Positions 2,775 through 35,161 of a stretch of 35,161 bases of DNA are shown piece after piece. The stretch covers positions 1 through 35,161 of the forward strand of contig JAAXUF010000016.1 in NCBI GenBank assembly GCA_013336165.1, written 5' to 3'. The notes under the pieces were generated by a model that saw nothing but the letters and a program-made list of their open reading frames with translations, ran no database searches and was not told the DNA's origin. This DNA comes from Coriobacteriia bacterium. GTDB lineage: Bacteria > Actinomycetota > Coriobacteriia > Anaerosomatales > JAAXUF01. The position numbers and the translations under genes are program-made. The stretch's first letter is position 1, and the number at the start of each line of letters is the position of its first letter.

Positions 2775-2850
2775 TGGTGCCCCCGGGCTGATTCGAACAG
2801 CCGACACCAGGTTTAGGAAACCTGTGCTCTATCCCCTGAGCTACGAGGGC
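2775..2850 (-). tRNA. tRNA-Arg (anticodon CCT)
   Basis: The minus strand folds into a full 76-base cloverleaf. The acceptor stem is GCCCTCG/CGGGGGC, the anticodon stem is CAGGT/ACCTG with loop TTCCTAA, the T-loop is TTCGAAT and CCA is encoded. Anticodon CCT (plus-strand AGG at 2815-2817) reads the Arg codon AGG. The 5' half is duplicated exactly 10.5 kb away at 13326-13365, so the gene was used as an attachment site. Its present 5' half and upstream region belong to the island, so its promoter may be island-derived. Confidence 0.95.
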
Positions 2851-3361: not shown

Positions 3362-3991
3362 CTATGTGTGGCACGTCCCACACACAAAGACACTCTGGTG
3401 ATGGCAGGAGACGCAATACGCCTTTGGGTCCAATTTCACATGCATGGCGTGGCACTTCGAACATGTCATCTTCGCGTCGACGTGTGCCTTGGTCAATGTT
3501 GGCGCTAGGTGCGGGTTGATCACGGTTCCGTTTGCGTCGGTAAGCACGGTTGAGGCGACCGTCTTCTTGACCAGCTCCGCAAGCGTGGTGTTATGGCAGG
3601 CAGAAGATAGACATGTCTTCTCATCCACCATCGTCTTGGTGAGCTTCAGATCCGCGGGTACCTTAGTGTCCACAGTCACACCACCATGAGCATTCTTAAG
3701 TCCGGTGACATCGGTGTGACAACTCATGCATTTCACGCCTGCACCAGCGTGCTTCGCGATTAGCATCGTGGTGTCTTTGGCCGATTCTGTTTCTGTCGCG
3801 TGGCATGTCGTGCAATCGGATGAGGCACTCCAAGCAAAGCTTTGTGCCTGCATGGTTCCTGAAGTGTCATCAGGTTCAGTGTTCTGGGACTTCCCGCATC
3901 CGGCAAGAAGCGCTACTGCGACTACAAGAAGAATAGCCAGCAAGATGCAAGATCGTCGGTTTGCTCTCTTTGCACTTTTCATAGTGTACAT
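3362..3991 (-). CDS. Secreted hexaheme-type c cytochrome, lipoprotein
   Basis: The 209-residue protein has a basic N-terminus, a hydrophobic helix and the lipobox LLAGC (Cys32), so it should sit outside the membrane as a lipoprotein. Five CXXCH sites (CTTCH 60, CMSCH 88, CSKCH 177, CVSCH 193, CGTCH 204) and one CX4CH site (CLSSACH 127) give up to six covalent hemes; several extra His could be axial ligands. It resembles the small cytochromes that feed extracytoplasmic flavoprotein reductases, like the fumarate-reductase-type flavocytochromes and the cytochrome partner in the Eggerthella cgr operon. It lies downstream of the flavoprotein gene in the same direction, separated by about 390 bases with a strong hairpin. 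The start could also be ATG 3982; neither has a strong ribosome-binding site. Confidence 0.85.
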   Translation of the reverse strand: MYTMKSAKRANRRSCILLAILLVVAVALLAGCGKSQNTEPDDTSGTMQAQSFAWSASSDCTTCHATETESAKDTTMLIAKHAGAGVKCMSCHTDVTGLKNAHGGVTVDTKVPADLKLTKTMVDEKTCLSSACHNTTLAELVKKTVASTVLTDANGTVINPHLAPTLTKAHVDAKMTCSKCHAMHVKLDPKAYCVSCHHQSVFVCGTCHT

Positions 3992-4380: not shown

Positions 4381-5877
4381 CTACTTGGACTTGGCATACT
4401 CGACAGCATTCTGGGCGCTCGCCCAGCCGAAAGCGGCAGCAGCTCCGATGGAGCTCACGTAATAGTGGACGAACGTGATACCGCCCGCGGTGCCTGGTAC
4501 AGCGTACAGTCCGGGAATCGGAGCGCCGCCATCTGCTTTCAGAACCTCGGCCTTGGCATTGATCGCAAGGCCGCCAAAACAGCAGCTCATACCGCCAACG
4601 ACTTCGGTTGCCCAAAATGGCGGTTTGGCGATCTTAACGATACTGGCGATCATCCCAGCAGTCCTGGGCACCGGCAGATTGGCCGTTGCGCCTGCGTCTA
4701 CGGCTGCGTTGTAGTCAGTGACGGTCTTGATCACACTGGCCCGGTTATAGCCCCAGGCTGCGATCTTCCCGGCAAGTTCCTCGATCGTGTTCGCGCTGAC
4801 CACATGACCGCCACGCTTCAGAACCTCTTGAGTTCGATCAATACCCGTCGGTGTACCGCCGGCCGTCGTGCTACCCCACTTGTCGTAGATGTACTGGTCA
4901 AAGATCAAACAGCCCCGGCCCCAGCGCTGGCGTGCCAAGGCTTCGTTGCACAGATCGCCGGCCAGTCCCATACCCTCATCGGCAAAACGAACGCCATCAA
5001 GGTTGACTACGATGGAACGGTTGTCGTGATATTGCGAACCGATCTCGGAGAATTCCATGAAGCTCAAATCGATGTTAGACGCAATGCTGTGCCCGTAGAA
5101 GGTCCCCAAGCTCTTGCTAAGCCCGGCACCGATAGCCTGAGCCATCAGCATCCCAGTGCCATCGTTGGTCGGTACACTGCGCGCGACCACTTGGTCTCCA
5201 TAAGGGCCAAGGAACTTAGTCTTCATCTCCGGATTGTTCTGAAAACCGCCGCAGGCCAAGATCACAGCCTTGGCCTTGATGTTCAAGATCTTGCCGCCTT
5301 TGTCCCTCGCCTGAAGGCCGTCGACAGTCCCATCACCGGATGTCAGAAGTTTGATGGCCTTGGTGTCCATCAACAGGGTTCCGCCAGCGTCCGTAAAGGT
5401 CTTCGCCAGAAACTCGAAGCACGCCAGGCGGGATTTGTGGGTGCTCTCAGCACCAATAGTGAACCCAGATGATGAAGCGCGAACTGGTGCGCCACTTTTC
5501 ACGATCATCTCGGTGACCTTGGGCATTCCCTCCACGAAAGTCTGCAACAACTTGCGATTGCCATAAGGCATAGTTGCCATTGCCGCCTCGATTGATGCGG
5601 GGCCGGCAGCACCGCCACCGGAATCCACGGCTGTGCCGCCAACCTGGGAGTAGGCCTCCACACAAAGCACCTTGGCCCCTGTCTTCTGCGCGGCCAAGGA
5701 AGCCGACGAGCCGCCGATGCCAAACCCGGCCACTGCCACGTCCACCTCATGATCCCAAGCGGGAACCTCTGTTGCCACTTTGCTGGTGCAGCCAGTTGCC
5801 ACAAGACCCGCCACCACGGCGCCGACTCCCACGGCGCCTTTCAGGAATCCTCGCCGATCAACCTCTTCTTCTTTCAT
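4381..5877 (-). CDS. Tat-exported FAD-dependent reductase, fumarate-reductase-like
   Basis: The 498-residue protein starts at ATG 5877, preceded by GAGGAGG at 5-base spacing; 47 further upstream in-frame codons are not used. Residues 6-35 form a Tat signal (DRRGFLKG, then a hydrophobic stretch ending ATGC). The FAD motif GFGIGG follows VDVAVA. The C-terminal FAD segment APIPGLYAV is present and conserved family patterns (GVRFADE, FGGL) occur. The His-Thr-Met-Gly-Gly stretch of true fumarate reductases reads MSCCFGGL here, and the usual GG(S/N)..GR near the C-terminus is VSSIGAAAAFG, so fumarate is an unlikely substrate. The downstream hexaheme cytochrome is the probable electron donor and the divergent membrane LuxR gene its probable regulator. 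The true acceptor is unknown. Confidence 0.85.
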   Translation of the reverse strand: MKEEEVDRRGFLKGAVGVGAVVAGLVATGCTSKVATEVPAWDHEVDVAVAGFGIGGSSASLAAQKTGAKVLCVEAYSQVGGTAVDSGGGAAGPASIEAAMATMPYGNRKLLQTFVEGMPKVTEMIVKSGAPVRASSSGFTIGAESTHKSRLACFEFLAKTFTDAGGTLLMDTKAIKLLTSGDGTVDGLQARDKGGKILNIKAKAVILACGGFQNNPEMKTKFLGPYGDQVVARSVPTNDGTGMLMAQAIGAGLSKSLGTFYGHSIASNIDLSFMEFSEIGSQYHDNRSIVVNLDGVRFADEGMGLAGDLCNEALARQRWGRGCLIFDQYIYDKWGSTTAGGTPTGIDRTQEVLKRGGHVVSANTIEELAGKIAAWGYNRASVIKTVTDYNAAVDAGATANLPVPRTAGMIASIVKIAKPPFWATEVVGGMSCCFGGLAINAKAEVLKADGGAPIPGLYAVPGTAGGITFVHYYVSSIGAAAAFGWASAQNAVEYAKSK

Positions 5878-5960
5878 CTGCTCCTCCTCACGACCACCGA
5901 GTCGCCCTGTGACGGCTCGCTGTGTACATGATGAAGGTCGGATCACAAGTGCCCAGTGTG

Positions 5961-6024
5961 CTAAAGGAACTGTCCTTGTAGTGCTTTTAGCGCTATGTCC
6001 TTCTGTGTAGTGCCCCACTATAAT
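5961..6024 (+). promoter_or_regulatory. Divergent control region: dyad, direct repeats and -10 box upstream of luxR-A
   Basis: TATAAT at 6019-6024 is a consensus -10 box 35 bases before the regulator start; no good -35 is visible, suggesting activation. Upstream, 5961-5981 reads CTA..AGGA....TCCT..TAG with near-dyad symmetry. TGTCCTT followed by GTAGTGC occurs twice (5971-5984 and 5997-6014). In the 182-base gap between two divergent genes these are the likely binding sites of the adjacent LuxR protein. Confidence 0.5.
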
Positions 6025-6059: not shown

Positions 6060-7484
6060 ATGGATGCCAGCACGGGTATCGACAAGCGTACAGTGGTGAT
6101 TTGTGCCGGCATTGCTTTCGTCTTCTACTCGACCGCCAATATCCTCCAGACTCCTATCCAAATCGGCGGCACGACGTCTCAAAGCACTGTGCTGTCGTTG
6201 TTCAAAGCAGGATTCGCCCTGTTATTGGCACTCTACATGCTCAAGGTTGGCATCTCCTTCAGGCGACTGCTGATGATCTGGGGGGTTGCCGTTTTCTTCT
6301 TCGTCTCCTCGCCGGTATTGGGGCTCTTGTCTGAATCAGCCTTCACGGATCACGTCTACTTTGTGGCCCTGGGGATAGCAACCTCAACCGGGCTGATCGT
6401 TGTGACCACCCTGCTCTCACGCCTTTCTTGGAACACAATCAAATACGTTGTCATTATTCAGCACATGCTGGCCGGATCAGCCAACTACGCCTTAACCATG
6501 CTCGGGTTTACAGACATCAAGGCGGCTGAGTATTTCTTCTATGTGTTGTTCGTGATCGCCACCGTTGTGTGGATCGTGTCCATGGGGGCTGAAAGAGACT
6601 TCGAGCTAGTCGCCGTGAGGCCCGCCGTTGATGATATTAGCCAATTGAGCCGCACCCAGATCACTCTGACTGCAATGGCTATCGGTGGTGCAGCGTTAGC
6701 TCCCTTTCTCTTCGGTGCGTTCGAGCAGCTCGCGCCCGACATGCTGGAGCTGGCATATCTTCAACCGACAAGCAGCCTGATCGACAACCTAGGGATCCCT
6801 GCAATAATCCTGATCGGTTTCCTCTTCAAGAAGGAGATCAGCATCGAGGTCTCCTTCTTCATGGTCAGTATCGGCTCATTCGTATTCCTGCTCATAGCGC
6901 TACTCGACTCTCGCTTCACCCATATGTTGTATTTCGCTACACTGGCTCTTGTGATCTACATGCACCTTGCTATCTGGCTCTTCGTCTTCAAGGTGGGCAA
7001 ATCGGGACCTGTCCAGGCAGGTGTGCTGATGGGCATCTCGGTCTTCACAGTCTCGTTCACCCGGATGTGCGGCAACCTCACGGCCTATGTTGCTCGGGCG
7101 CTTACTGATGCGCAATCGACTATTGATACCGTTAACCTTTGGGCCCTGGCGGTCTTTGCTCTGATTAACCTAAGCCTGTTCGTCATCACCTATAGATTGC
7201 AGAGAAAGATCGCTGACAGTGCGTCAGCCGAGAACCAAGCAAGTGTGAAAACGAGTCTGGAAACCTGCGCCCAGGAACTGGCGACACGGTTTTCCCTAAG
7301 TCAGAGGGAGTATCAGGTACTGTTGGAATATGCGGCTGGTCGCAGTGCGCCTTTCATAGCCAAGAAGTACTACCTGTCGGTTTTCACTGTCAAGAACTAT
7401 GTAGGCCGCTTCTATGCCAAGATGGGTATCCACGATCGGCAACAATTGCTGGACTTGCTGGAAGCTGAAGAACGAAGGAAGTAA
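6060..7484 (+). CDS. Membrane-embedded LuxR-family regulator (module A)
   Basis: The 474-residue protein has GAGGAG about 4 bases before ATG 6060. Residues 1-390 contain many hydrophobic helices (about 12) resembling a transporter-like sensor. Residues 405-470 form a LuxR/GerE helix-turn-helix with the family pattern FSLSQREYQVLLEYAAGRS...IAKKYYLSVFTVKNYVGRFYAKMG. This architecture is typical of Coriobacteriia, where such regulators sit beside flavoprotein reductase genes and are thought to respond to the reductase substrate. It is divergent from the flavoprotein/cytochrome pair across a 182-base gap, so it most likely controls that pair. The ligand is unknown, and sensing by the membrane part is inferred. 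Confidence 0.88.
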   Translation: MDASTGIDKRTVVICAGIAFVFYSTANILQTPIQIGGTTSQSTVLSLFKAGFALLLALYMLKVGISFRRLLMIWGVAVFFFVSSPVLGLLSESAFTDHVYFVALGIATSTGLIVVTTLLSRLSWNTIKYVVIIQHMLAGSANYALTMLGFTDIKAAEYFFYVLFVIATVVWIVSMGAERDFELVAVRPAVDDISQLSRTQITLTAMAIGGAALAPFLFGAFEQLAPDMLELAYLQPTSSLIDNLGIPAIILIGFLFKKEISIEVSFFMVSIGSFVFLLIALLDSRFTHMLYFATLALVIYMHLAIWLFVFKVGKSGPVQAGVLMGISVFTVSFTRMCGNLTAYVARALTDAQSTIDTVNLWALAVFALINLSLFVITYRLQRKIADSASAENQASVKTSLETCAQELATRFSLSQREYQVLLEYAAGRSAPFIAKKYYLSVFTVKNYVGRFYAKMGIHDRQQLLDLLEAEERRK

Positions 7485-7543
7485 TCGCAGTCCCTGCTCC
7501 TGCGCGCGCAACCATCTTGGCGGGAAAACACTGGCTCCGACCG

Positions 7544-7716
7544 GGCAGCAAATCGCTGAGGCGCTGTGTCATGCCGACTACCGCCGAGTGCCCGTGGAGG
7601 ATCCGGACCTGTAGCTTGAGGACCCCCTCGCCACGATCGAACTCGGTGGCATCGCTGAAGGGGCCATATTGCCGACCGGCTCATCGAGACTTGGCTGCGC
7701 ATGCGTAGAAAGCGCA
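7544..7716 (+). pseudogene. apbE fragment (internal piece, decayed)
   Basis: This stretch aligns base for base, with scattered changes, to 12157-12340 inside the intact apbE downstream. It includes CAGCAAATCGCTGAGGCGCT and the segment for the ATIDLGGIAKG region. It has an in-frame stop (TAG near 7613), small deletions, and neither N- nor C-terminus. It is joined directly to the element-end repeat at 7718, whereas the downstream copy has about 790 extra bases there, so an internal deletion fused apbE to the element end. Confidence 0.85.
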
Positions 7717-7717
7717 C

Positions 7718-7915
7718 TCGGCCGCAGGCAATTGACGAGGTAGAGAAGGCCTTGAAGCGAGCGGACTCCCACTGTTCGGCTAGAAGCGGCTCGCGAAACT
7801 AGTAACTGCATAGTAACGGTCACCAGCCGACCGGGCAGGATCTGAGAGGTCCTCAGGGGAGTTGGTTTGTGCCTGAAACACCCTACCTGATGGAAGGTAC
7901 TTCCATATCGTTAGG
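7718..7915 (+). repeat. Element-end repeat, left copy (integrase-tail remnant plus arm sites)
   Basis: Nearly identical to 13127-13330. It encodes a 23-codon tail on the pattern IDEVEKALKRADS...GSRN followed by stop, which looks like the C-terminus of a lost integrase. It then carries AGTAACTG/AGTAACGG at 7801-7819, the palindrome GGAAGGTACTTCC and the core-edge sequence CATATCGTTAGG ending at 7915. Similarity stops exactly at TTAGG, the point where the downstream copy enters the tRNA repeat. This marks a former attachment junction that has lost its tRNA half. Confidence 0.8.
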
Positions 7916-8102: not shown

Positions 8103-9629
8103 ATGTTTAAGCGGCACTTTGACGAGCTCAACTTCTTAGACAGCCTTGCTGTAGCTGCCTTCTGCGTGAGCCTGCCACTGCTCCTGCCCGTCCTCGATGC
8201 CCTCCACCATTTGATGAAGGGTATGAGTTCGCAAATGGTGCTTTCTTCCTTCAGCGCCACGAGCTTGCCCCAAACGATGCCAATGGCTGTCATGTTGACT
8301 GCGCTGGCGATCCTCTTCCTCTGTTTGTTAGGAGCCACCTACCATCGCCCTAGCAGGGGGTTTGTGACCGCAGGGGCAGTTCTCTATCTGCTCGGCTACA
8401 TCGGCTCCCAGAGCATACTCTGGTTCCCCAATCTGTCCGGATCGCTCCTTGCCGTATCAGGCCTTCTACTCGGCGTGGGGCTCAGTCTCCTCATCATGAC
8501 TTGGCTCTGGCACTTGCGGTTGCGAAACATACGTCTCACCTTTGCGTTGCTACTCATCGCACTTTGTCTCACTGCCGCGCTCAACATGGCTTTGCACTGG
8601 GTGCCCTGGCAGATTGAATCAGGTGTACGTCTTGCGCTTGCCTGCGTCGGTTCGCTTGGCGCGCTGCATGCAACCAGATCCCCGCGGTACGTCCAAGAGG
8701 CCATTGCGGCGGACAATGGCACGAACTCCAAATGGTGGGAAATCTTCGGCCACCTCAATCTCCCGTTCGCCAAAGACTCAGATGATTTCACCCCACCCTA
8801 CGCACGCGTACTCTTCTTCGTCGTGACACCCCTCGTCGTCCTCCTGCTCTTCGTCGTCAACCGGGGTGTGGACAGCGGTGCGACGACACTCCTAGGCGGA
8901 CTCTACACTCCTGAGATGATCGCCGGCCTCCTCTGTGCGCCGAGCGCCGCGATCCTGCTACTCGTATACAGTGATCAGGGTCTCGTCAGCACCATCTGCC
9001 GTCTGTATCTCCCGATGTTGGCGCTTGCCCTGTTCGCTATCGTCCCATTCGCCACAAGCGACGCCAAAATGCTGATCATGCACATCGGCATCGACGTCTT
9101 CTGCTCGATCTACGCCCTCTTGCTCTCAGCAATGCTGCTTGCCGTCGCCAATCGCATGCGCTCGCTGCTGCTGCCGTCTGCTGCCCTGCTACTGATCGCG
9201 CTTAGCCTCGTCGCGTTGCTTGCCTTCAGGGGCACTGAAGCTGGATTCCTCGGCAGTTATCGACCTCAGGTCGGCATTGCGCTGTTTGCCTGCGCCGTGG
9301 GGCTGCTTCTGCTCACGCCAGGGTCGCGGATATGGCGGATGCTTATTGAAGGCGCGGCGGATGAAAGTGAGAAGATCGCGCCTTCCTTACAAGCACGCTG
9401 CGCCGTTCTGGCCAAAGCCTATCATCTCACTGAACGTGAGGCTGAGATCATCCCCTTGCTCGGACGTGGCTACGGCGCGAGTCATGTCGCCGAGATACTC
9501 GTCGTAGCGGAGAGCACCATCCGCAGTCATCGCGGCAACATCTACCGGAAGCTCAACATCAACTCGCGCGAGGCGCTGCTTGACTTGCTTGACAGCCCAG
9601 CGATCGACAGCGACCCAGACAACGGTTGA
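8103..9629 (+). CDS. Membrane-embedded LuxR-family regulator (module B)
   Basis: The 508-residue protein has about 12 hydrophobic helices in residues 15-420 and a LuxR helix-turn-helix at about 435-495 (YHLTEREAEIIPLLGRGYGASHVAEIL...STIRSHRGNIYRKLNI). It shares architecture but little obvious sequence with the module A regulator, so the two are not recent duplicates. It lies 215 bases upstream of and in the same direction as the FMN-binding, ECF and ApbE genes, and is their probable regulator. ATG 8103 has no strong ribosome-binding site. Confidence 0.85.
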   Translation: MFKRHFDELNFLDSLAVAAFCVSLPLLLPVLDALHHLMKGMSSQMVLSSFSATSLPQTMPMAVMLTALAILFLCLLGATYHRPSRGFVTAGAVLYLLGYIGSQSILWFPNLSGSLLAVSGLLLGVGLSLLIMTWLWHLRLRNIRLTFALLLIALCLTAALNMALHWVPWQIESGVRLALACVGSLGALHATRSPRYVQEAIAADNGTNSKWWEIFGHLNLPFAKDSDDFTPPYARVLFFVVTPLVVLLLFVVNRGVDSGATTLLGGLYTPEMIAGLLCAPSAAILLLVYSDQGLVSTICRLYLPMLALALFAIVPFATSDAKMLIMHIGIDVFCSIYALLLSAMLLAVANRMRSLLLPSAALLLIALSLVALLAFRGTEAGFLGSYRPQVGIALFACAVGLLLLTPGSRIWRMLIEGAADESEKIAPSLQARCAVLAKAYHLTEREAEIIPLLGRGYGASHVAEILVVAESTIRSHRGNIYRKLNINSREALLDLLDSPAIDSDPDNG

Positions 9630-9844
9630 ACTCTTCATTGGGCTTCTGAGCAGCTAAAATGCCCTTCCTTCATCCTTTCCGTCGATATGCCCCGAGCATC
9701 ATCGTGGGACGATTTCCACCTTTCTGACTATTTCAGGAGTCTGCGGCTGCCCTCACGCTATGCCACGGAAACACTCGCGGCGAGTATTGCGGGAATGGCG
9801 ATGGTGCGCCGTCGAGCAAAGGGATACGAAGGAGGAATTTGGGT

Positions 9845-10861
9845 ATGGAACTAACGAGGCGCGATTTCATGAAGGGCACCACTGTACTGGCTTTCGGCGC
9901 GCTGGGCGCTTACGCCCTTGGAGGCTGTGCGGCAAGCGGCGGGAATCCACCCGCGGCGTCGGGCGGCGGAGCCGCTCCGAAAAAGGTCACGCTGCACCGT
10001 GGCTATTTCTCAGCTCACACCAGCCGCTCTTACGCGCAGGCTGTTGTAGCTGTCGACGAGAGCGGCAAGATCGTCGCTTGCGACATCGAGGATTTCCAAT
10101 TAATGGATTCAGCCCACGCATGGACGCCGGTACCGAACTCCAAATCCGACTTGGGCAAAGGCTATGCTGCTGGCATGGTTCTCATCTCGAAGAAGGACAA
10201 CGACAAGGTCTTGTCCAAGTGGATGGCCGACGAGGGCGGATCCAAACAGCTCTGGTCTATATCCATGGCCGCAATCGAGGCTTTTGTCGTGGGCAAATCA
10301 CCAGCTGACCTGACCAGTGTGAAGATCGACGATATCTCGGGCGCAACCCTCGTTGACAGGGTCAATTACGTGAAGGGCGTTGCCGCGGTTGCAGCCGACA
10401 ATACGCTCACCACCGAAGGCAGCTTCGACGGGGATGCCAGCGAAATCAGGATCGGCCACGTCGATGCCGTCTGCCACGGCACCTTTGCCTTCGCGAATGC
10501 CGTCTCACTTGTGCATTCAGACACCTTCGTGGGTGTCAGCATCGACGAGTTCCAGTTCTTGGACGCCAAGACCGCTGGCCTCATATCGGTGCCAAACTCG
10601 GACAAACTACTCGGCCAGAGTTACGCCGCGGGCCAAATGCTCATGTCCAAGTCGATTAACAGTAAGATATACTCCGAGCATATGGTCGGCGCGACCAAAC
10701 AGTGGCTCGACTCGATGAAAGCCATCGAGAAAGCACTGGTCGGGCAGAAGGTCTCCAGCGTTTCCGTGGATAGTCCTGATGACGTCTCCGGTGCCACATT
10801 GGCAGACACCGCCAACTACGTGAAGGCTGCGGTGAGCGCCGCAAAGGCCGCCAAAGGGTGA
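9845..10861 (+). CDS. Tat-exported protein with two FMN-binding (flavinylated) domains
   Basis: ATG 9845 has AAGGAGG 9 bases upstream; the TTG six bases earlier is too close to it. The 338-residue protein begins with a Tat signal (LTRRDFMKG) and a hydrophobic stretch ending GGCAAS, possibly a lipobox. Two FMN_bind repeats follow, at roughly residues 45-180 and 195-335. Each has the ApbE target pattern D-D-x-S-G-A-T, with Thr168 and Thr318 as predicted phosphoester-linked FMN sites. The protein should work outside the membrane as a flavin electron carrier, like PplA of the Listeria flavin-based electron-transfer system, which also carries two FMN. The modifying enzyme ApbE is encoded two genes downstream. 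Confidence 0.9.
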   Translation: MELTRRDFMKGTTVLAFGALGAYALGGCAASGGNPPAASGGGAAPKKVTLHRGYFSAHTSRSYAQAVVAVDESGKIVACDIEDFQLMDSAHAWTPVPNSKSDLGKGYAAGMVLISKKDNDKVLSKWMADEGGSKQLWSISMAAIEAFVVGKSPADLTSVKIDDISGATLVDRVNYVKGVAAVAADNTLTTEGSFDGDASEIRIGHVDAVCHGTFAFANAVSLVHSDTFVGVSIDEFQFLDAKTAGLISVPNSDKLLGQSYAAGQMLMSKSINSKIYSEHMVGATKQWLDSMKAIEKALVGQKVSSVSVDSPDDVSGATLADTANYVKAAVSAAKAAKG

Positions 10862-10873
10862 ATGCCAGCTGAC

Positions 10874-10910
10874 GAGGGCACGGGAGCGGGCTTCCGTTTC
10901 CGTGCCCCTC
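10874..10910 (+). terminator. Hairpin between FMN protein and ECF component
   Basis: GAGGGCACGG (10874-10883) pairs with CCGTGCCCCTC (10900-10910) with one bulged C, then TTAG. The T-tract is very short, so it may attenuate rather than end transcription into the ECF and apbE genes. Confidence 0.5.
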
Positions 10911-10949
10911 TTAGCCGAGGATAATCGGGGAAGAGAGCCGTAGACAGCG

Positions 10950-11498
10950 ATGCAGCCGGGCAGATTGGAACGCTCGCCAAAGCAGTTCGCCGCGCTCATC
11001 ATACTCGCGCTCATGGCCATGGTGATGAGCTTCATTCAACTGTCGTCTTTCCCTGGTGCCGAGTGGTTGAAGTACGACCCTTCGGGCGTCGTTGTGCTTC
11101 TGGCAGGTTTTCTCTACGGTCCTTGGTACGGTGCGGCCGTAGCCGCCTTTGCTTGGGCACCCCAATTAGCCACCAGCCCGTTCGATGCAATCATGAACAC
11201 TATGTTCTCGGTCTCATACGTCGTGGTCACCGCGCTCGTCTACCGCCAGGCTCCGAGATTCATGCGCGCCGTGCTCGGCATCTGCGCCGGTATCCTTGCC
11301 GCAGTGACCGCCTCGATCTGCCTCAACTTCGTCGTCACACCGTTCTACCTGTCTCGCACTTATGAAGATGTTGTGGCCCTCGTCCTGCCCACCTTGCTGC
11401 CTTTCAACCTCGGCAAGGCTGTGCTCAACGGTGTCATCGCACTCATCGCCTATCGCGGTCTCGAGTCCCTGCTGACCGACGAGGAGAATAGAAGTTGA
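10950..11498 (+). CDS. ECF transporter S component-like membrane protein, probable flavin transport
   Basis: The 182-residue protein has about five or six hydrophobic helices. It shows S-component landmarks: an early YDPSGVVVLLAGFLYGPWYGAAV segment and a C-terminal LLPFNLGKAVLNGVIALIAY segment, both resembling RibU-type riboflavin-binding subunits. No energising ATPase genes are nearby; a shared ECF module elsewhere is usual for group II systems. Its place between a flavinylated protein and ApbE parallels the transporter plus flavin transferase pairing in Listeria flavin-based electron transfer. Moving flavin to supply external FMN attachment is therefore a reasonable inference, but the substrate is not proven. 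Confidence 0.75.
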   Translation: MQPGRLERSPKQFAALIILALMAMVMSFIQLSSFPGAEWLKYDPSGVVVLLAGFLYGPWYGAAVAAFAWAPQLATSPFDAIMNTMFSVSYVVVTALVYRQAPRFMRAVLGICAGILAAVTASICLNFVVTPFYLSRTYEDVVALVLPTLLPFNLGKAVLNGVIALIAYRGLESLLTDEENRS

Positions 11499-11825
11499 CG
11501 GGAGAAACGGTTCCTCATATCAACCCTCAGGCAGACAGGCTTCCGCTATCAATTCGTGGGGCTGTGACTGTCGCTTCTTGGTCTTCATGGGGATGGCGGG
11601 CCACTTGTAGCCAGAAGATCGCAGGAGCTGAAGGAGCAAACGGCCCCGTAGTAGCTCGATGTCTTCCCGTATGCCGTGTCAGAGAATCTTGGGCAATTCG
11701 GGCCGAAATTGGTGTTTACGATATACATCCAGAGGACGTTCTCACACGCCACCAACGCGAGGCGAGCCCATCAATCGATGTGGAGCCGACTTGCGTGGGA
11801 TCATTCGCTTCGGCAAGGGGAAGAG
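11499..11825. other. Spacer between ECF component and apbE, no confident gene
   Basis: A frame starting at TTG 11495 overlaps the ECF stop and runs to 11860 (MTGETVPHIN..., one weak hydrophobic patch GAVTVASWSSWGW), but no family is recognised. The spacer may hold a decayed N-terminal signal region of apbE, whose called start lacks any export signal, or a lost small gene. Confidence 0.4.
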
Positions 11826-12776
11826 ATGGCCGCTGTACCATCAACACCGTTTACCCGTGAGTTCTTTGCATTCAACACCACGAACCGTGTCAGTGCCTGG
11901 ACGGCCGATGCCGCCGCCCTTGACGAAGTCGTGGCGCTTTGTGTGCGTTACGAAAAGCTCTTCTCGCGCACCGACCCGATAAGCGAGCTTACGCGTCTGA
12001 ATCTGGCCTGTGGCGAACCGATGGATGTCGACGGCGAGCTCGCGGCACTTACCAGCGCTGCCTTCGGGTACAGCAAAGCGTCCGGTGGACTCTATGACGT
12101 GACGATGGGGGCCGTTGTTCGACTGTGGGATTTCAAGGGGCAGGTTATCCCGACTGAGCAGCAAATCGCTGAGGCGCTGTGTCATGTCGACTACCGCCGA
12201 GTGCATGTGGAGGGCGCGACCGTGCAGCTCGAGGACCCCCTCGCCACGATCGACCTCGGCGGCATCGCCAAAGGCTACATTGCCGACCGGCTCATCGAGA
12301 CTCTGGTTGCGCATGGCGTAGAAAGCGCACTCGTCAACCTTGGGGGCAATGTTGCGGTGCTCGGTGGCAAGCCAGATGGCACCGCCTGGCGCATTGGTCT
12401 GCGCAGGCCGCAGTCCTCCTTGATGCAGCAGGCCCCCCAGTCCTTCGGAATGTTTGAGGTGCGCGACCGATCAGTGGTGACGAGCGGCGTCTACGAGCGC
12501 GCCTTTGAACGCGAGGGACGGCTCTACCATCACATCCTCGACCCGCGCAGCGGTTATCCAGCGGATACCGACCTGCTCGGTGCTTCGGTCGTCGCCGAGC
12601 GCTCCCTCGACGCTGACGGCTATTCGACGGCACTGATCATCATGGGGCTCGACAAGGCGCTCGGCTTCATTGAAGATCAACCGGGTCTCGAAGCGGTCTT
12701 CGTCACCACCTCAGGTGAGGTCTATGCGAGTTCAGGAATCGGTACCTTGCTGCCCTTCAAACTCCTGGATTGCTGA
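11826..12776 (+). CDS. apbE: ApbE flavin transferase
   Basis: The 316-residue protein transfers FMN from FAD to a Thr in target proteins, here presumably Thr168 and Thr318 of the FMN protein upstream. Conserved segments appear in order: TREFFAFNTTNRVSAW at the N-terminus, SRTDPISELTRLN, GGLYDVTMGAVVRLW, IDLGGIAKGYIADRL, ALVNLGGNVAVLG, SGVYERAFER and YHHILDPRSGYPAD. The Mg-binding DADGYSTALIIMG follows. ATG 11826 follows AAGGGGAA closely; an upstream in-frame ATG at 11676 lacks family similarity. No signal peptide or lipobox is visible, although most ApbE proteins act outside the membrane. Either it works inside or its leader has been lost. Confidence 0.92.
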   Translation: MAAVPSTPFTREFFAFNTTNRVSAWTADAAALDEVVALCVRYEKLFSRTDPISELTRLNLACGEPMDVDGELAALTSAAFGYSKASGGLYDVTMGAVVRLWDFKGQVIPTEQQIAEALCHVDYRRVHVEGATVQLEDPLATIDLGGIAKGYIADRLIETLVAHGVESALVNLGGNVAVLGGKPDGTAWRIGLRRPQSSLMQQAPQSFGMFEVRDRSVVTSGVYERAFEREGRLYHHILDPRSGYPADTDLLGASVVAERSLDADGYSTALIIMGLDKALGFIEDQPGLEAVFVTTSGEVYASSGIGTLLPFKLLDC

Positions 12777-12814: not shown

Positions 12815-13014
<200 letters not shown>

Positions 13015-13126
13015 ACAGGCAGAGCATTGAAGCTCAGACTCCCGCTGAGGGCAGCTGCCTGAATGGGCCCCGGAGCAGCTGAGGCAGGCGCCGAGACGTT
13101 GTCTGATCTGCGCAGCCTCTTTGACA

Positions 13127-13330
13127 TCGGCCGCGGGCGGTTGACGAGGTAGAGAAGGCCTTGAAGCGAGCGGACTCCCGCTGTTCGGCTAGAAGAGGCT
13201 CGCGAAACTAGTAACTGCATAGTAACTGTCACCAGCCGACCGGGCAGGATCTGAGAGGTCCTCAGGGGAGTTGGTTTGTGCCTGAAACACCCTCACTGGG
13301 CCTGATGGAAGGTACTTCCATATCGTTAGG
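13127..13330 (+). repeat. Element-end repeat, right copy (integrase-tail remnant, arm sites, core edge)
   Basis: The partner of 7718-7915. A frame reads RAVDEVEKALKRADS...GSRN and stops at 13209-13211, like the end of a tyrosine integrase whose body is missing. AGTAACTG occurs at 13210-13217 and 13221-13228. CTGAG-n5-CTCAG (13251-13265) and GGAAGGTACTTCC (13307-13319) are inverted repeats close to the core. The copy runs directly into the 40-bp tRNA repeat, marking the true right end. Confidence 0.8.
13210..13228 (+). repeat. AGTAACTG direct-repeat pair, right integrase arm-type sites
   Basis: Two exact AGTAACTG copies 11 bp apart, about 98 bp inside the right attachment repeat. They overlap the stop codon of the integrase-tail remnant and have the same orientation and spacing as the left pair at 2906-2924. 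Confidence 0.6.
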
Positions 13331-13365
13331 AAACCTGTGCTCTATCCCCTGAGCTACGAGGGCTT
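13326..13365 (+). repeat. Island attachment site, right copy (truncated tRNA-Arg 5' half)
   Basis: Exact 40-bp copy of 2813-2852. It holds only tRNA positions 1 to the anticodon loop and cannot fold into a tRNA. It is probably the original chromosomal 5' half displaced when the island entered. Confidence 0.85.
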
Positions 13366-15968: not shown

Positions 15969-16051
15969 GCATGACGACTTGGGCGCGCGAATACCGGCCC
16001 GCGCCCGTCGCGGTATCATGGTCGCATCGAGCATCTCGGTCAGGAGTGTGC

Positions 16052-17710
16052 ATGGAAGCCAAAGACAACGCGGGCCTGTCGAGAAGGGACTTCCTTCGTG
16101 GAGCCGCCCTAGGCTCGGCTGCGGTCGTCGGCGCGAACATGCTCGGCGGCTGCGCACCTGCGCCCGCCACGGTGCCCTCTCCCACGTTCCCCGACACCGG
16201 CAAGACGACCGATCCCGGCGTCTACCCGTTCGAGACCCCACCGACGCCCATTCCGGAATCCGCGATTGTGCAGACGATAGCCACCGATGTCTTGGTGGTC
16301 GGGTTTGGCTCGGCGGGAATCACCGCCGCTCTCTCGGCTGCCGAGACCGGGGCCCACGTCGCAGTCATGCAGAAGGCGGGCACCTTCTTCGCACAAGGCT
16401 CATGGATCGGCGGTCTGGGCAGCAAGTTGCAGATCGCGAAGGGGTACAACCCCGACATCCTGCCGATACTCATCGAACTTCAGAACGCCTCCGCCAACAA
16501 AGCCGACTTCGGCCTCATCAAGCTGTGGGGCTACAACAGCGGCAAGGTCATCGACTGGATGACAGCCTACTCAGACGCGGCCAAGCTGCCCGTGGAGTGG
16601 GCGGGCGACGTGCAGATGGCTGATCCGCTCAACCGCCAGTACCCGACGCTTCACGTGTGGCAGGGCTGGCTGCAGGCTCTCATGAAGGTTCTCGTGGACA
16701 ACTGCCTGAAGAAGAACGTCGACATCCACTACAACATGCCCGCCCTGCAGCTCATCCAGAAGGACGGCCGAGTGGTCGGGGCGATCGGTAAGAACGCCGA
16801 CGGGAAGTACGTTCGAATTAGCGCAGCCAAGGGCGTCGTCCTAGCGACTGGGGACTACGGCAACGACACGGACATGGTTGCCAAGTACTGCCCTGCGGTG
16901 GCGGGCGCTGCAAACTACTACCGGCCGGCGTATAACACGGGTGACGGCCAGAAGATGGCGATGTGGGTTGGCGCGAAGGTCATGCAGTGGCAGCACGCGC
17001 CGATGCTCGGCTACACCGCGGTCGATCAATCAAGCGGAGACTTCCCGTTTTCGGGATCACCGTGGCTTACGGTAAACACTCGTGGCGAGCGGTACTGCAA
17101 CGAAGACTCCGCGTACCATGCAGCGTTCCATGCCGATCTGCGGCAACCCGCACAGACCAAGTTCCAGATCTGCGATTCGACCTGGCCGACACAGTGGTCA
17201 GCATTCGGCAAGAGCTGGACGCGACTGCCGATCCTGCCCGGGGAACTGCTCTCGACTTCCCAAGCGGCAGCTGCCGACGTGTGGTCGACGGGCATCAAGC
17301 GCGGTGCCGTCATCCAGGGTGCGACGCTCGAGGAGCTCGCCGGCAAGATCAGCGTCCCCGGGAAGACGTTGGCTGCAACCGTCGCCCGCTACAATGAGCT
17401 GGTCAAGGCCGGACGCGATGACGACTTCGGCAAAAACCCCGCATACCTCAAGGCGTCGGCCATAGCACAGGCGCCGTTCTATGCGATCCCCAGGCATCCA
17501 GGGCTCCTGACCGTGCCCGGCGGTGGCGTGTGGGTCAATACAAAGCTGCAGGTTCTCGACAAGAACGACGCGCCCATTCCGGGCCTCTACGCAGCCGGCA
17601 ACACGGCAGGCGGCTTCTACGGCAACGACTACACGCAACTCATCCCCGGGGGGAGCCTCGGCCGTGCGACCACGTTCGGCTATCTTGCGGGCAAGGCCGC
17701 TGCCGAGTAG
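16052..17710 (+). CDS. Second Tat-exported FAD-dependent reductase-like flavoprotein
   Basis: ATG 16052 has AGGAG 5 bases upstream, giving 552 residues. The N-terminus carries a Tat motif (SRRDFLRG), a hydrophobic stretch and LGGCAP, so it is exported and possibly lipid-anchored. FAD motifs are DVLVVGFGSAGITAAL (about residue 77) and APIPGLYAAGNTAGGFYG...PGGSLGRATTFGYLAG near the end, a complete fumarate-reductase-type flavoprotein fold. The active-site stretch reads TVPGGGVWV where fumarate reductases have HTMGG, so another substrate is likely. Unlike the island flavoprotein, no cytochrome or regulator gene adjoins it. It lies outside the island and ends only 3 bases from the convergent pknB stop. 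Confidence 0.85.
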   Translation: MEAKDNAGLSRRDFLRGAALGSAAVVGANMLGGCAPAPATVPSPTFPDTGKTTDPGVYPFETPPTPIPESAIVQTIATDVLVVGFGSAGITAALSAAETGAHVAVMQKAGTFFAQGSWIGGLGSKLQIAKGYNPDILPILIELQNASANKADFGLIKLWGYNSGKVIDWMTAYSDAAKLPVEWAGDVQMADPLNRQYPTLHVWQGWLQALMKVLVDNCLKKNVDIHYNMPALQLIQKDGRVVGAIGKNADGKYVRISAAKGVVLATGDYGNDTDMVAKYCPAVAGAANYYRPAYNTGDGQKMAMWVGAKVMQWQHAPMLGYTAVDQSSGDFPFSGSPWLTVNTRGERYCNEDSAYHAAFHADLRQPAQTKFQICDSTWPTQWSAFGKSWTRLPILPGELLSTSQAAAADVWSTGIKRGAVIQGATLEELAGKISVPGKTLAATVARYNELVKAGRDDDFGKNPAYLKASAIAQAPFYAIPRHPGLLTVPGGGVWVNTKLQVLDKNDAPIPGLYAAGNTAGGFYGNDYTQLIPGGSLGRATTFGYLAGKAAAE

Positions 17711-35009: not shown

Positions 35010-35068
35010 AGCGCTATCCCCACACGTCAGAACAACAGAAGGGCTCCCAGACTGGACCGCGCCCCTAA

Positions 35069-35110
35069 AGTTGGACCCGGAATGAAAGTTCCGGGTCCAA
35101 CTCTCTTTTT
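35069..35110 (+). terminator. Intrinsic terminator inside the IS end
   Basis: A perfect 14-bp stem (35069-35082 with 35089-35102, AGTTGGACCCGGAA) around TGAAAG is followed by CTCTTTTT. It would stop transcripts entering from amt and shield the transposase from outside promoters; it also ends the amt transcript. Confidence 0.85.
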
Positions 35111-35122
35111 GGGGGTGATGTC

Positions 35123-35161
35123 ATGAAATGGGATGATGCAACAAAGACGGAGGCAGCGGAG
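35123..35161 (+). CDS. Transposase OrfA start (partial)
   Basis: Thirteen codons reading MKWDDATKTEAAE are visible after a GGGGGTGAT ribosome-binding region. The length is too short for a family call on its own; position inside the IS3-like end supports a helix-turn-helix OrfA. Confidence 0.5.
   Translation, partial: MKWDDATKTEAAE

Follow-up and report, generated by a model that had tools for sequence, protein, structure and literature searches.

The window, that is, the whole 35,161-nucleotide stretch of DNA analyzed here, carries at positions 8103-12776 four intact open reading frames on the plus strand, encoding a membrane LuxR-type regulator, an FMN protein with export signals, an ECF transporter S component, and an ApbE-type flavin transferase (Table 1). 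The sequence-only reading had described the same one-direction set, with a membrane LuxR gene at its head, a dedicated ApbE, and two D-D-x-S-G-A-T sites at Thr168 and Thr318. All of this was borne out by the intact frames and domain matches, by a residue count from the ATG at 9845, and, for ApbE, also by its adjacency in homologous loci.

Table 1. Positions of the cassette genes, of module A and of the repeats and gene fragments around them.
Feature	Position	Strand	Evidence and details
tRNA-Arg(CCT), left boundary of 10.5-kb region	2775..2850	-	ARAGORN and Rfam
Module A lipoprotein-like cytochrome	3362-3991		five CxxCH motifs; weak Cgr1 match, below cut-off
Module A Tat FAD_binding_2 reductase	4381-6018		no FMN_bind domain of its own
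Module A membrane LuxR	6060-7484		
Decayed copy of internal apbE fragment	7537..7720	+	88% identical to 12150-12333; frameshifts and stops
Island-end repeat, upstream copy	7718..7915	+	second copy 13127-13330; 94% identity; ends at TTAGG of tRNA core
Membrane LuxR-type regulator (10-12-TM LuxR type)	8103..9629	+	508 aa; GerE HTH, E=4.6e-12; 10 hydrophobic segments
Tat-exported, lipobox-bearing FMN protein, two FMN-bind2-type domains	9845..10861	+	338 aa; RR, LGGC, two motif Thr
RibU-type ECF transporter S component	10950..11498	+	PF12822, E=1.8e-14; RibU structure matches
ApbE FAD:protein FMN transferase without signal peptide	11826..12776	+	PF02424, E=2.1e-82; 4ifu, E=2.3e-56
rpoC 3'-end pseudogene fragment, downstream of apbE	12835..13191	+	75-83% nt identity to the genome's own rpoC
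Exact copy of tRNA-Arg 5' half, right boundary	13326..13365	-	40/40 identical to 2813-2852

The cassette and its conservation

The FMN protein, for which the ATG at 9845 is the best start, carries a Tat RR motif and an LGGC lipobox in the motif scan, and its two motif threonines are the T of DDISGATLVD (Thr168) and of DDVSGATLAD (Thr318). In an alignment of the window protein with its 15 convincing homologs, no variation is seen at either threonine, at Asp -6, or at Gly -2 (16/16), while the Tat RR motif is present in 14 of 15 full-length proteins and the lipobox cysteine in most. Pfam PF04205 gives a weak match (E 0.011, under the gathering score), consistent with domains of the FMN-bind2 type, which are longer and are described by Huang 2024 (PMC11334425) as coming in pairs. 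The AlphaFold2 model (pLDDT 89.5, pTM 0.85) likewise consists of two domains, in each of which the elements follow one another in a similar order, as in a paired unit of two long FMN-bind domains. Searches for known structures yielded little: Foldseek of this model against the PDB gave no match below 1e-3, with IscU-like chains of low query TM on top and the FMN-bind crystal structure 3o6u among the weak fold matches (rank 21, E 0.18, TMt 0.51); the viral library gave nothing; and by sequence against the PDB, phmmer found nothing and the best profile match was 2kzx (E 0.017). The protein is a PplA-like carrier with two FMN-bind2 domains and two flavinylation motifs, as in the Listeria type of extracellular electron transfer, and the invariance of the motif threonines supports the earlier proposal that Thr168 and Thr318 are predicted sites of covalent FMN. 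The two-domain FMN-bind2 proteins of Huang 2024 (PMC11334425) show the same paired long domains with one motif each and a two-domain AlphaFold2 model; however, the example given there is an Erysipelotrichaceae protein, and a Tat-exported counterpart from Coriobacteriia whose ApbE lacks a signal is not mentioned in its main text.

The 15 homologs outside the window, which come from a sample of 398 genomes of the class, share 41-52% identity with the FMN protein. A LuxR gene (30-40% identity) adjoins the FMN gene in 13 of these loci, an S component follows in 14, and ApbE is adjacent in 11, with all three present in 10. Because LuxR, FMN protein, and S component co-occur in 13 of the 15 loci, 10 of which also have ApbE adjacent, the four-gene cassette is a real unit whose arrangement is not due to chance. 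ApbE usually lies divergent from LuxR-FMN-S; in the window it lies downstream in the same direction. The cassette occurs in Eggerthellaceae and a second Coriobacteriia family, with named loci in Paraeggerthella, Hugonella, Raoultibacter, Eggerthella sinensis, and Berryella. One locus lies in a 3,632,260-bp single contig (G110) taken as the Eggerthella lenta type strain (PMC3035228), and no description of the cassette in Eggerthella was found in the open-licence literature. Its distribution is patchy, since the FMN protein was detected in 13 of 138 Eggerthellaceae genomes in a family-wide search. More remote relatives with two domains (27-43%) were detected in Faecalibacterium, Lachnospiraceae, lactobacilli, Caloramator, and other groups, almost none of them accompanied by LuxR, S component, or ApbE. 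A Berryella homolog (L043 8001-8951) has no Tat signal and sits beside a divergent ApbE without LuxR and S component, possibly representing a cytosolic version or a degraded cassette.

The regulator carries its GerE helix-turn-helix at residues 442-494, at the C-terminus. This architecture, a C-terminal helix-turn-helix behind at least ten hydrophobic segments, encoded beside presumed target genes, is that of the Coriobacteriia 10-12-TM LuxR family (DadR, HcdR, CadR), whose members activate neighboring genes on specific substrates (PMC9734109). However, those regulators control catechol dehydroxylase, whereas the cassette LuxR would control a flavinylation cassette. A shared operator was sought upstream of the FMN and ApbE genes, where no consistent dyad was found.

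Flavin loading and flavin supply

The cassette ApbE aligns with the FMN transferase structure 4ifu over residues 29-306 and retains both the ApbE fold and the catalytic motifs (AKG.IAD, NLGGN, HHILDP, D.DG). In the tree it groups with other cassette ApbEs (support 96/99), apart from the two further ApbEs of its genome. An alternative start at 11676 was rejected, as the extension is neither conserved nor hydrophobic and homologs start near a conserved FF.FNT strand. Judged by hydrophobicity and motif patterns rather than a dedicated predictor, no recognizable signal peptide or lipobox is present in the cassette ApbE of 12 genomes (the window and 11 homologs). The signal-less state appears specific to the cassette enzyme, since two cassette-bearing genomes also encode exported ApbEs (one lipoprotein-like and one Tat in G202, one Tat in G221). 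Neither of the two other ApbEs in the window genome shows a signal peptide, and two further proteins of this genome combine FMN_bind and FAD_binding_2 domains behind Tat-like N-termini.

The Tat pathway transports folded, cofactor-loaded proteins. With a signal-less transferase and a Tat-exported acceptor, the simplest and best reading is therefore that flavin would be loaded in the cytosol before export, in which case export of FAD would be unnecessary. Cytosolic ApbEs exist, for instance in Klebsiella pneumoniae (reviewed in PMC12052999), and the cassette enzyme would, by its sequence, be a cytosolic FMN transferase of this kind; the K. pneumoniae target is a soluble cytosolic fumarate reductase, whereas the likely target here is Tat-exported. 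The cassette ApbE could alternatively act on another cytosolic protein.

The S component is of the RibU type. RibU structures were the only S components matched in a profile search of the PDB (5kbw, 1.3e-27; 3p5n, 1.1e-25), and the structure search against RibU that had been proposed as a check gave a concordant result: with the AlphaFold2 model (pLDDT 85.9) as the Foldseek query, TmRibU ranked best (TM 0.86/0.91), followed by SaRibU, the top five matches were all RibU (TM 0.80-0.93), and other S components fell well below, so that RibU is closer than FolT, ThiT, BioY, or PanT. The resemblance to TmRibU and SaRibU thus extends over both sequence and fold; the cassette protein differs in being a second S component, since the same genome already has a RibU-like S gene at C5, where it apparently shares an operon with EcfA, EcfA', and EcfT. 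A targeted search of this genome, with positive controls recovered in 14 of 14 cases, did not find ribH. Together with the second RibU-like S gene and its EcfA, EcfA', and EcfT, this suggests that the organism probably needs external flavin, and a flavin-auxotrophic cell supplied by a RibU-like subunit through shared EcfAA'T is more likely than a role in FAD export. Because RibU of Listeria brings flavin into the cell and is not required for FAD export, which EetB performs with FmnA (PMC9973259), import is by analogy the better guess for the cassette S component, although a RibU-type subunit could also have FMN or FAD as its substrate or work in the export direction. No FMN riboswitch was found by the Rfam scan of the window, which returned only two tRNAs.

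Genomic setting

Both the cassette and module A (a cytochrome, a Tat FAD reductase, and a membrane LuxR) lie inside a 10.5-kb region bounded on one side by tRNA-Arg(CCT) and on the other by a perfect 40-nt repeat of its 5' half. Between them sit the decayed apbE fragment and the first copy of the island-end repeat; compared with the copy downstream, this junction (7537-7915) lacks about 790 bp, which suggests two tandem elements or a duplicated unit. The first 65 nt of the repeat (7718-7782) duplicate a piece of rpoC, and an interpretation of 7718-7915 as an integrase 3' end was rejected for that reason. The rpoC 3'-end fragment downstream of apbE is only 75-83% identical to the genome's own gene, hinting at a foreign origin. 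No integrase was identified inside the 10.5-kb region, though the exact repeat stands at both of its ends.

A related arrangement is found on contig C20, where two tRNA-Arg 3'-half copies (L124 6811-6860 and 12014-12062) flank a module of LuxR and a Tat FAD reductase, with a tyrosine integrase beside them (L124 12126-13355). The 5'-half copy in the window and the 3'-half copies on C20 share the anticodon-loop core of tRNA-Arg(CCT), and homologs of the exonuclease gene on the left flank of C20 lie a few kb from tRNA-Arg(CCT) in two genomes of the same family. From the tRNA-half copies and these exonuclease homologs, C16, the contig of the window, and C20 probably represent the two flanks of a single site of accretion, and we infer that the tRNA-Arg(CCT) site is an integration hotspot. 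Since the FMN protein was not found in 68 other genomes of the window's order, nor an ApbE of any kind in two same-family genomes, horizontal acquisition of the cassette is the natural reading; trees of the FMN protein and ApbE place the window sequences among cassette members without a single donor lineage. At the far end of the window, 109 bases (35053-35161) are shared without mismatch with the end of C1, another contig of this genome, which probably reflects an assembly break at a repeat.

A predicted surface flavin carrier

Taken together, these data make it fairly probable, in our judgment, that this accessory cassette builds a membrane-anchored, double-flavinylated electron carrier. An external cue sensed by the membrane LuxR would switch the cassette on, as in the characterized E. 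lenta family. The RibU-type S component would dock on the shared EcfAA'T and import flavin into a cell in which ribH was not found; the signal-less ApbE would then use FAD to place FMN on Thr168 and Thr318 while the protein is still in the cytosol, and the folded holo-protein is predicted to leave through Tat and to be lipid-anchored outside the membrane. There, the two FMNs may relay electrons from a membrane donor, probably a quinol-linked cytochrome, to an extracellular reductase or a soluble acceptor. As the neighbors in homologous loci included no conserved gene for an electron donor or acceptor, transfer to an outside acceptor is suggested by analogy to known carriers.

The same part list, a PplA-like two-FMN lipoprotein with an ECF subunit and ApbE, would also suit a minimal Listeria-type extracellular electron transfer system, with FAD exported through the ECF subunit, an ApbE active on the outer side of the membrane, and external acceptors receiving their electrons from the PplA-like protein. 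The likeness to PplA/FmnB/EetB-FmnA of Listeria monocytogenes (PMC9973259) covers the surface lipoprotein, the ApbE-type transferase, the ECF-type flavin subunit, and the apparent flavin auxotrophy. However, FmnB of Listeria operates outside the cytosol and depends on EetB/FmnA for its supply of exported FAD (PMC9973259), whereas the cassette pairs an ApbE that is signal-less in all 12 genomes, and thus unlike FmnB, with a Tat acceptor, a RibU-type S component, and a membrane LuxR. It also comes without EetB-family, NDH-2, or quinone-synthesis genes: neither Ndh2 nor DmkA/DmkB had a family match in the four cassette genes or the scanned neighbors. A PF07456 protein, a family which we take to be that of EetB, was not found in the window genome, which does contain several genes resembling EcfT, the component type of FmnA. 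Hence the Listeria-style system put forward in the sequence-only reading stands as regards its two-FMN PplA-like carrier, ApbE, and RibU-like S component but not its mechanism, and we regard this mechanism as unlikely.

That reading had also suggested that electrons might pass to module A, and the FMN protein could be imagined as the dedicated donor of its cytochrome and reductase, given that both units share the tRNA-bounded region and that the reductase has no FMN_bind domain of its own. Yet in Eggerthellaceae the cassette stands without module A at several genomic sites, module A has its own LuxR gene, and the repeats point to separate accretion events, so that the adjacency fits accretion at tRNA-Arg; the conserved cassette does not include module A, and such a role is distinctly improbable. 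(A further FAD_binding_2 protein with a Tat-like N-terminus lies at 15971-17710, outside the tRNA-bounded region.) Still less likely, in our judgment, is a cassette for flavin capture, storage, or sensing, with the lipoprotein as a surface flavin reservoir or a signaling partner of LuxR. Such a function would suit a cassette that stands alone, combines a regulator and a transporter for flavin with a transferase and a flavoprotein, and lacks a conserved redox partner, but a covalent threonyl-FMN bond is poor for storing flavin, and the ApbE substrates of this type known so far serve as redox carriers (PMC8238504, PMC11334425).

Returning to the favored carrier, the cassette may exemplify a distinct assembly route, in which a dedicated signal-less ApbE completes the loading of a double-FMN lipoprotein in the cytosol and Tat exports it as a holo-protein with no need for an FAD exporter, the whole forming a mobile cassette under its own regulator that is found in gut Coriobacteriia, E. 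lenta among them; we advance this proposal tentatively, with its chances somewhat short of even. If true, there would be a second way of making surface flavin carriers, in which they are loaded inside and sent out through Tat as finished proteins, as opposed to the export of FAD to an ApbE outside. Cassettes of this type may have been undercounted, because a flavinylation survey (PMC8238504) dropped ApbE and FMN-binding genes for which no signal was predicted and was based on PF04205, a profile that scarcely picks up the FMN protein. Since the genome taken as the E. lenta type strain carries the cassette and genetic tools exist for E. lenta (PMC9734109), the idea is directly testable in a common human gut bacterium.
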